A DNA stretch of 64,000 nucleotides from positions 17,741,501 to 17,805,500 of the forward strand of contig NC_088303.1 in assembly GCF_032854445.1 (NCBI RefSeq). The letters run 5' to 3'. Shown here piece after piece: positions 47,101-49,098 of this stretch. The first letter of the stretch is position 1. Every line of letters starts with the position of its first letter. A program made the position numbers and the translations under genes. The notes beneath the pieces are model-generated. The model ran no database searches, was not told the DNA's origin, and saw only the letters and a list, made by a program, of their open reading frames with translations. The stretch comes from Liolophura sinensis (Eukaryota; Mollusca; Polyplacophora; Chitonida; Chitonidae).

Positions 47101-49098
47101 ATCTTAGTGGTAGAGAAACCTGCATGTGTGCTTTGTGCAACCCAACCCAGCTGGCTCAAGAATTACAGTCAGGTTTATTACTGAATGAAACCAGACCTTT
47201 GCCAGGTAGCTGTGGTAAACCCTGACCTTTGCCAGGTAGCCATGGTCAACCCCTGACCTTTGCCAGGTAGCTGTGGTAAACCCCTGACCTTTATCATCTA
47301 GATGTGGTAAAACCCTAACCTTTGCCAGGTATCTGTGGTAAACCCCTGGTCTTTGTCATCTAGATGTGGTAAACCTCTGACCTTTGCCAGGTAGCCATGG
47401 TAAGCCTCTGACCTTTGCCAGGTAGCCGTGGTAAACCCCTGACCTTTGCCAGGCAGCCGTGGTAAACCCCTGACTTTTGCCAGGTAGCCGTGGTAAACCC
47501 CTGACCTTTGCCAGGTAGCTGTGGTAAACCCCTGACCTTTGCCAGGTAGCTGTGGTAAACCCCTGACCTTTGCCAGGTAGCTGACAACCCTGAACTAAAA
47601 TTATGGCCAAAGCTGAAAAAGCAAGAGCTAGATTCGAACACTTGGCCTCACTTGTTAAGGCCGTGATGGTCATAGCAAGCCAGTGCTTTAACCATCTGAG
47701 CCAGCAAGGTCCCCATATCAACAGAGGCCCTGTTAAACATTGGCTGGGCAAGTGTGCTGGTAAGTGCATTGAAATGTCATTGGAAATTATATACTCATTT
47801 GTACTTATTCAATAATGGAGGTGTTGCTCACGAACCAGTTGAATGCTGACATTCTACAGTACAAAGTGATAAGAGTGAAAACACAGGTATTATATGGAAA
47901 ACACAGGTATTGTATGGAAAACTCATGCATTGATGGAAGTGCTACTCATAAAGCAGATGTACATTGAGTCAGGCTGTGATAGTGTGAATGTACTCCTCTG
48001 AAAAACTCTGAAATAATGATGTGCTGCTCACAAATGTGTTGAAATATGTGGTATTGTGATTATCTTGAATATTTTGGAAAACCGAATAAAGGAGGTGTGT
48101 CTCAAAAACACTGCACACTGTGATAAATTAATGTGGAATATACACACTTTGAAAACCTCCAATAATCGAGGTGCTGCCCATAGAACTGTTGAACGATGAC
48201 ATATTATTCAGTACATTATGATGTTGTGAAATGTATTCCTTACATGGAAAACTTATGCATTAATTAATGGAGGTGCTACTGATAAACCACAGGAGTGCTG
48301 ACTTACGCTGATAATGTAGAATATGCTCACTCTGAAAACTCGCCTAATTTTAGAGGTGTTACCCATAAGTCAGATGAGCAATGATACATTGTATTATACA
48401 CTGTGATTATCATGAATACACTTCCTATGGAAAACTCACCCATTAATGGAGGTGCTGCTCATAAACCAGCTTAGCACTGAGCGGAGTATAGAATGTAACA
48501 CCTGAGTAAAAACCCAATCGGATTTTTGGTAGCAGTTCTCCAAAAAAAGTTCTGTTTCCGTATCTTGATGAAATCGGATGAATTTGTCCCGGATGTCAGC
48601 CGGAAGTTTGTCTTGTTCTACCACATACCACTGTTATTAGAAAGGAGCAGATTTTTGATACCAGTACATGATGAACAAATCAGAAAAAACAAAGACAATT
48701 CAACATATTATGTCCCTACCAGAGGCATTAAGATTTATGTTTTATTGATTACTTGCCAAACTTACCTCAGCCTAAAAAAAGGCCATGAGTTTCCCAGAGA
48801 AATACTTAATATCATTCTCATTGAATGAACTTGAATTAAATGAACCCACACAAAAAAATTACACTACATACACCTATAAGTTTGAAATATACTTAAGGAA
48901 AAGAACATGTACGCCATGCCTTAGCTTTGGTAACAGAATGACGTGGTAACTTACATAATCATGGCAGTCATGCCTGTGACGTTCGTCTTCCAACATCCGA
49001 TGATATATAGTCCTGGCCACAGAACTTCGCACCAAGCCGATGGGTCTTGGTGATTCTTGGTTCATGTAGGACATGGATGACTGAGGGCTATCCTCCAT
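44101..49098 (-). CDS. METTL9: METTL9, protein-histidine N-pros methyltransferase (6 coding exons)
   Basis: METTL9 (DREV family) uses S-adenosylmethionine to methylate histidine at the pros nitrogen in HxH-type motifs. Coding exons in transcript order on the - strand: 49098-48955, 48630-48440, 46972-46872, 46229-46121, 45195-45011, 44327-44101. All junctions are GT-AG and the phases join to 318 residues, the human length. Visible marks are WYVVEQDKL (49-57), FMSSTSING before the exon 2 donor, the SAM motif LLDLGAGDG (142-150), [11 protein letters not shown] (201-211), [15 protein letters not shown] and the C-terminal [11 protein letters not shown] (283-293) with [12 protein letters not shown]. 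The first 48 residues are hydrophilic, while the human protein starts with a hydrophobic signal segment. A splice acceptor-like TTCTGGCTTTAG just upstream (exon start 49111) suggests an unseen first exon. The body of the gene is certain and the start is not. Confidence 0.94.
44409..44668 (+). mobile_element. SINE-A, full-length (METTL9 intron 5)
   Basis: The complete head (GATGGCCAAGGAGGGTAGC, B box GACTTCAAGTCC), body, AAGTGAAATATTCTTCAG and AAATAAATAAAT tail are present. It is antisense to METTL9 and begins about 80 bp inside the intron from the last exon. Confidence 0.9.
45598..45728 (+). mobile_element. SINE-A 3' half (METTL9 intron 4)
   Basis: The body and 3' end are present from GGGCATCCCCTGGGTTTTG, with AAGTGAAATATTCTTGAGC and an extended degenerate AAATA tail. 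Truncated head. Confidence 0.85.
46487..46556. repeat. 19-bp tandem repeat, about 3.5 copies
   Basis: AATTAACAACCAGCAATGG is repeated at 46487, 46506 and 46525 with a partial fourth copy. It lies in METTL9 intron 3. The first three copies are identical, so this is a recent expansion. Confidence 0.9.
47190..47588. repeat. Minisatellite, 31-bp monomer (METTL9 intron 2)
   Basis: About 13 copies of CCCTGACCTTTGCCAGGTAG plus CTGTGGTAAAC are present at a 31-bp period (for example 47471 and 47502). The monomer has no stop in any - strand frame. A 31-codon peptide repeat therefore opens over the array, cycling through all three frames. The array lies inside an intron, so this is not taken as coding. 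Confidence 0.92.
47596..47728 (-). mobile_element. SINE-C head, tRNA-like
   Basis: Read on the - strand: GCTGGCTCAGATGGTTAAAGC is an A-box-like start and GTGTTCGAATCTAGC a strong B box, spaced as in a tRNA. It abuts the 31-bp array. A partial SINE with a head different from SINE-A and SINE-B is more likely than a functional tRNA, because the arms do not pair into a full cloverleaf by eye. Confidence 0.6.
47813..48440 (-). repeat. Array of degraded copies of the METTL9 exon 2 end and donor
   Basis: The exon 2 end at 48440-48467 reads, on the + strand, ACTCACCCATTAATGG then AGGTGCTGCTCATAAACC. Related blocks recur in the intron with GGTG anchors near 47820, 47938, 48020, 48093, 48170, 48272 and 48355, against 48451 in the exon itself. 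Spacing varies from 73 to 118 bp. Each block keeps parts of the donor side (GGAAAACTCATGCATT) and of the exon side (TGCTGCTCATAAACCAG). Because the exon copy encodes the conserved SSTSING, it is the likely parent. Confidence 0.8.

Follow-up and report, generated by a model that had tools for sequence, protein, structure and literature searches.

A decayed exon-intron boundary array in intron 2 of METTL9 and related arrays in the chiton Liolophura sinensis

How an exon-intron junction can come to be repeated inside the intron that follows it, and how a gene can tolerate such a run of copies, is the question raised by METTL9 in Liolophura sinensis. The gene is encoded on the minus strand of the window analysed here (the whole stretch of 64,000 nucleotides, positions 17,741,501 to 17,805,500 of contig NC_088303.1). 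In amphioxus, minisatellite-like tandem duplications of exon-intron boundaries are known as mirages and have been described in Adh3, BflGb6, BflGb9, PGBD5 and TnC (PMC3087553, PMC3902484; statements on cited papers are limited throughout to their accessible parts). We consider it very probable that the array of METTL9 is a decayed mirage, that is, a junction duplication whose exon-proximal unit is functional, whose intronic units have decayed neutrally and which is tolerated through exon definition.

The genome searched was an assembly of 609,464,459 bases in 632 contigs, in which the Pfam model DREV gave four matches, exon by exon, all at one locus. The peptide of exon 2 matched three distinct PDB sequences over all 63 residues in phmmer (best E 8.3e-12). 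Their name is protein-L-histidine N-pros-methyltransferase, which we take to be METTL9, and the end of the peptide reads FMSSTSIN against FMSRTSIN. The donor GTGAGT begins at 48439 and the frame runs into exon 3 at 46972 (AAT GG/C TAT, a slash marking the splice junction here and below). Intron 1 measures 324 bp if the guessed exon 1 is correct. The gene model is as follows.

Exon 1: end at 48955, minus strand; a guess, from the open frame
Exon 2: 48440..48630, minus strand; 63 codons plus 2 bases, ending ...WFMSSTSIN + GG (phmmer, Pfam DREV and frame)
Real donor of exon 2: 48434..48439, minus strand; TGG/GTGAGT (frame and splice consensus)
Intron 2: 46973..48439, minus strand; 1467 bp, of which the array occupies the first ~640 bp
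Exon 3: 46972-46872, minus strand (frame and splice consensus)
Exon 4: 46229-46121, minus strand (frame and splice consensus)
Exon 5: 45195-45011, minus strand (frame and splice consensus)
Exon 6: start at 44327, minus strand (frame and splice consensus)

When the junction (48400-48500) was aligned with the rest of intron 2, seven separate non-self local matches were found between 48384 and 47803, with scores of 35.6, 29.4, 27.5, 27.0, 25.0, 24.8 and 23.0. All seven exceed 15.7, which is the best score both of 200 dinucleotide-preserving shuffles (best fifth score 10.5) and of the comparison stretches, up to 300 in number, taken from elsewhere in the window, so that the similarity proposed in an earlier note on this DNA, between the end of exon 2 and the intronic blocks, is significant. 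When the ten splice boundaries of METTL9 were each compared with the adjacent intron, only the exon 2 donor beat all 100 of its own shuffles, the scores of the other nine being reached by 3 to 100 of 100. The copies follow one another head-to-tail, tiling the intron between 48384 and about 47803; their homology spans the exon-intron junction in a common register, and pairwise identity among units is about 51-71%. The count of about seven blocks given in the earlier note thus stands; the size given there (the last 30-70 bp of exon 2 with its donor) does not, since the unit measures 73-118 bp, with an exon share of 41 bp in the parent unit. After the parent unit, U0, the lengths are 82, 103, 82, 73, 77 and 118 bp (U1 to U6), followed by U7. 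Unit starts were placed by eye; as similarity is supported only to 47803, the lower limit drawn for U7 is arbitrary.

U0, parent unit: 48385..48480, minus strand; 41 bp of exon end and 55 bp of intron start
U1: 48303..48384, minus strand; donor position decayed to GGCGAGT
U2: 48200..48302, minus strand; donor position GCATAAGT, new donor-like CAT/GTAAGG at 48243
U3: 48118..48199, minus strand; local match and tiling
U4: 48045..48117, minus strand; best match 48055-48109
U5: 47968..48044, minus strand; best match 47974-48034
U6: 47850..47967, minus strand; nested 20-bp repeat at 47877-47938
U7: 47803..47849, minus strand; exon-derived part and donor region

Tandem Repeats Finder (TRF) misses the array as such and reports only the nested repeat of U6. 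Because the exon part of the unit encodes conserved METTL9 protein, exon 2 is, as judged from the sequence, the parent of the array; its identification as such in the earlier note is borne out by the phmmer match and by the single METTL9 locus. Two other repeats occupy intron 2. The stretch 47590-47730 is a tRNA-derived element, presumably a short interspersed nuclear element (SINE), with at least 44 matches in the genome, itself included. Adjoining it at 47194-47583 is a 31-bp minisatellite of 12.6 copies, which has perhaps grown from the tail of the SINE-like element.

The copies no longer carry the donor from which they descend. GT at the homologous position is kept in 0/7, so that the pseudo-donors reported in the earlier note are indeed decayed; they do not form a field, as the array holds 9 donor-like sites against a mean of 7.4 (sd 4.5) in control stretches. 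Donor scores, here and in the survey described below, come from a human donor matrix; on this scale the new CAT/GTAAGG of U2 reaches 8.3 bits and the real donor 8.5 bits. Among the seven copies, the exon-derived part is 60.5% identical (800 comparisons) and the intron-derived part 63.2% (600 comparisons), and the codon-position pattern is not marked (0.71, 0.70, 0.66). A function of the copies, sought through conservation, was therefore rejected, the two parts not differing. Given the lost GT and this equal decay, the array looks neutral and old. In a maximum-likelihood (ML) tree of the eight units, 0/5 inner branches were supported and the shortest tip was that of U0 (0.17, against 0.26-0.38 for the other units), the pattern that a burst with later decay would leave if the parent alone were constrained. 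A dimeric (higher-order) structure was also considered: the even/odd division was the best of 35 4/4 splits by alignment score, and was rejected as the ML tree did not support it.

We propose the following course of events. A segment of ~96 bp over the exon 2/intron 2 junction would have been duplicated in tandem and amplified to about eight units, the array growing by unequal exchange or slippage. The 5'-most unit would have stayed the functional exon end and donor, kept by selection on the protein, while the seven downstream units, lying inside the intron, would have decayed neutrally and lost their donors. Boundary arrays would be tolerated because the splicing machinery pairs sites across the exon: the exon-proximal donor would win and the intron-side copies would be invisible. 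Under such an exon rule, splicing would settle on the first of several donors in a row, and on the last when it is acceptors that are repeated. Among human competing sites of near-equal strength, exon definition indeed favours those closest across the exon (PMC9225289). For METTL9 itself, a frame read past the first donor hits an in-frame TGA one base in.

Several points weigh against this explanation. Across the seven copies, 8/75 dinucleotide positions are lost as fully as the donor GT, so the absence of GT from all seven is by itself not significant and gives no proof of purging; selective purging of pseudo-donors was rejected on this ground. The age of the array would be judged from divergence within one genome, and use of the first donor is likewise deduced from sequence. 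Exon definition is not certain for exon 2, because intron 1 would be only 324 bp long if the guess for exon 1 holds, and for human competing sites under intron definition the downstream donor is preferred (PMC9225289).

In favour of a decayed mirage, younger arrays of like anatomy and of several ages lie at other exons of the genome. They were found in a survey of 102 loci of two domain families, for which the counts below hold: 60 loci around the top 30 matches of Pkinase and the top 30 of Helicase_C, with 1500 bp per side, and another 42 for Helicase_C, with flanks of 700 bp and taken from the 46 remaining listed matches, the other four of which lay inside loci already taken. Arrays were sought at exon edges and the edges were then read by eye. 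TRF reported 24 arrays of at least 240 bp, of which 23 are distinct (one array is shared by the overlapping loci L088 and L094), and 8/23 start inside a coding exon end and cross its donor. These eight are given first below, followed by three arrays at other kinds of edge or with a damaged frame. Coordinates are positions within each extracted locus, exon overlaps are taken from TRF edges, and gene labels other than those with a PDB match are tentative or come from the Pfam query.

L047: 1633-2273; unit 22 bp, exon overlap 22 bp; matches DEAD-box helicases in general
L048: 1643-2501; unit 39 bp, overlap 33 bp; 22 copies of a DDX41-like exon end and GTGAGT donor
L054: 1636-2423, reverse; unit 69 bp, overlap 50 bp; SWI/SNF subfamily A
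L062: 525-1315, reverse; unit 85 bp, exon overlap 57 bp
L077: 737-1316; unit 122 bp, exon overlap 102 bp; Dicer
L078: 841-1282, reverse; unit 37 bp, exon overlap 59 bp
L082: 772-1532; unit 66 bp, exon overlap 49 bp
L091: 814-1293; unit 50 bp, exon overlap 11 bp; marginal
L064: 699-1301, reverse; 45-bp unit of exon end and donor, kringle-like WDYCDIPRC
L063: 229-656; mirror-image type, in which a unit of 81 bp (pyrimidine tract, AG and exon start) sets five acceptors one after another
L040 (and L065): 2424-3189, reverse; array of 41-bp units that begins just inside the coding end of a DDX23-like gene and passes the stop codon

PDB matches were obtained for L048 (DDX41, E 3.2e-21), L077 (Dicer, E 5.2e-17), L040 (DDX23, E 2.3e-36) and L054 (SWI/SNF subfamily A chain, E 2.6e-28, which we take to be SMARCAD1). 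L091 is marginal in that its 11-bp exon end is repeated exactly at only two further places. The array of L021 was traced upstream to the exon end and donor in L064; the seed exon there has a frame break, so this gene may be damaged. The 12 other arrays have a 5' edge that is intronic or ambiguous (L020, L033, L036, L057, L068, L070, L072, L088/L094, L093, L095, L097 and L099): those of L070, L072 and L095 start 14, 5 and 66 bp after the donor, L033 and L068 are ambiguous, and L068, L093, L097 and L099 were followed upstream. A hit in L055 was discarded as a boundary array, since no array is present and the sequence looks like a dispersed repeat.

The 5' edges of these arrays appear not to be placed at random. 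When the 24 arrays were placed at random in their own loci, 2.14 5' edges were expected near the end of a domain match (110 bp before to 25 bp after it) and 8 were seen (P = 0.00066), namely seven exon-seeded arrays, L091 included, and L070. For 3' edges at exon starts, 2.14 were expected and none was seen, which is not significant (P = 0.10). The zones were set after the first hits had been seen, by domain matches rather than annotated exons, and L062, L064, L063 and L040, which sit at other exons, are outside this count. Donor arrays outnumber acceptor arrays 9:1 (L064 and L091 included, METTL9 excluded); it may be, at a guess, that acceptor arrays are less well tolerated. A strictly donor-only phenomenon is refuted by the acceptor array of L063. 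The amplification of an exon-intron junction, which the earlier note had called unusual, is therefore not so in this genome and is known as the mirages of amphioxus.

The younger arrays retain what METTL9 has lost. In eight donor arrays (L064 included, L062 excluded), 101 extra copies align over 70% or more of the unit, and 88/101 of them retain GT: L047 24/28, L048 21/21, L054 10/10, L064 9/11, L077 3/3, L078 8/10, L082 8/10 and L091 5/8. In 66 of the 101 the copied donor scores at most 1 bit below the real one, and L048 alone has 21 extra donors, 17 at full score, each with its own exon-end copy. Purging of pseudo-donors in younger arrays is unsupported, as the kept GT count exceeds that of the mean dinucleotide in six of the eight, falling below it in L082 (8 vs 8.4 of 10) and L091 (5 vs 6.3 of 8). 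In fresh arrays, the splicing machinery is apparently faced with many near-identical decoys, from which it has to tell the right signal. The coding sequences of the survey arrays suggest the arrangement expected from the exon rule (first donor, last acceptor). In five of nine cases (METTL9, L048, L054, L064 and L091) a stop is met before the second donor when reading past the first, so that the full-length protein needs the first donor there; in L047, L077, L078 and L082 no such stop is met, and frame and conserved motifs point to use of the first donor. METTL9 would differ from these sister arrays by its age, since its copies have lost their donors, and may represent a late stage of the same process.

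Sister arrays of METTL9 sequence itself were not found. DNA searches of the genome with the array and with the junction returned the METTL9 locus alone; these searches have little power where divergence reaches that among the array units, and such copies could be missed. Allowing up to 3 mismatches, a core of 21 bases occurs at 8 places in the genome (5 for the reversed control), and three of the 8 are in the METTL9 array, the parent unit among them. Within this reach, no copies elsewhere place the array in a dispersed repeat or satellite family, and no comparable array without METTL9 sequence, which the earlier note had named as counter-evidence, came to light. Rfam gave no matches at gathering scores in 40000-56000.

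Four other explanations were weighed. The best of them, still improbable, regards the array as an intermediate in the gain of an intron through tandem duplication (the Rogers model and the mirage model of amphioxus), in which copies become new exons and introns. The model has been published for mirages (PMC3087553) and for a potato gene (PMC4974935); against it, the exon 3 acceptor region lacks clear copies (best score 14.9, reached by 6/100 shuffles), so that duplicated sequence is not found at both intron ends as the criterion for intron gain has it. Moreover, the remainder of intron 2 holds the SINE-like element and the minisatellite, and there is no sign of a new exon in METTL9. A little less probable is a selected splicing regulator, in which decoy exon ends tune donor use. 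The location of the array directly after the donor and the U2 site with a score like that of the real donor would suit such a role, whereas the exon-derived part has no excess conservation, none of the seven ancestral donors is left and donor-like density is at background. Use of a later donor would also hit the in-frame TGA, yet regulation by unproductive splicing needs no open frame. That the array is an ordinary intronic minisatellite, alike to the exon by chance or having invaded it, is hard to credit: an unrelated 31-bp minisatellite does lie in the same intron, but the junction scores are far above shuffles, the exon part is conserved METTL9 protein and the copies cross the junction in a common register. 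Finally, an assembly artefact can be practically dismissed, for although tandem arrays are prone to misassembly and the mitogenome in this assembly looks concatenated, the METTL9 units differ mutually by about 29-49% and cannot be one sequence assembled twice.

As to that mitogenome, contig C99 carries COX1 seven times at intervals of about 15.5 kb (one copy is partial), and the invertebrate code gives a good reading of mitochondrial COX1, in keeping with a mollusc. Elsewhere in the window, long repetitive open frames in several frames at 56644-58450, 59340-59942 and 60212-60580 are probably tandem repeats.

Compared with described systems, the array of METTL9 is of the same kind as the mirages of amphioxus, and the broader finding is that this kind recurs in a chiton. 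It agrees with the definition of a mirage (PMC3087553) in that a tandem repeat spans an exon-intron boundary, and the authentic unit retains coding exon and splice site. Splice signals in many copies, a described trait outside the definition, are absent here; with GT in 0/7 copies we call it a decayed, not an active, mirage. In the accessible parts of the amphioxus papers, the shared features are a tandem repeat over the junction that spares the coding exon, a unit length between tens of bp and ~160 bp, and donor-side and acceptor-side versions. The differences are the phylum (mollusc versus amphioxus), the far greater decay (pairwise identity about 51-71% versus 81-100% for BflGb6), the loss of copied donors and, in the chiton survey, the excess of donor over acceptor arrays. 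Introns born by tandem duplication, in potato RdRp (PMC4974935) and as novel introns of Drosophila (PMC2891723), similarly involve tandem duplication of exon sequence bearing a splice site; in METTL9, unlike these, the copies lie inside an existing intron and no new intron is seen. Ordinary intronic minisatellites, in abalone TSSK1-like intron 3 (PMC6905558) and earthworm metallothionein intron 1 (PMC12783039), share the head-to-tail array in a lophotrochozoan intron; their accessible descriptions do not trace them to an exon end with its donor. The accessible portions of the gastropod hemocyanin, earthworm and abalone papers report repeats in introns or conservation of boundaries, and no arrays seeded by exons. 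In the partly accessible open-access literature, with subscription journals mostly outside it, boundary arrays beyond amphioxus were not found, tandem-duplication introns apart.

Tentatively, and as a proposal that falls a little short of an even chance, we suggest that exon-intron junctions of the chiton, donors above all, may be a preferred birthplace of long intronic tandem arrays. These would arise in repeated bursts, reaching in some cases more than 20 copies, and would later decay as in METTL9, while exon definition would shield the gene from many decoys of equal strength. Boundary arrays would in this way go on supplying intron sequence in substantial amounts. Fresh arrays, such as that of L048, are natural experiments on splice-site choice. 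Since mirages were found in the literature accessible to us only from amphioxus, and several are now seen in a mollusc, they suggest that the process recurs among animal genomes and is no oddity of amphioxus.
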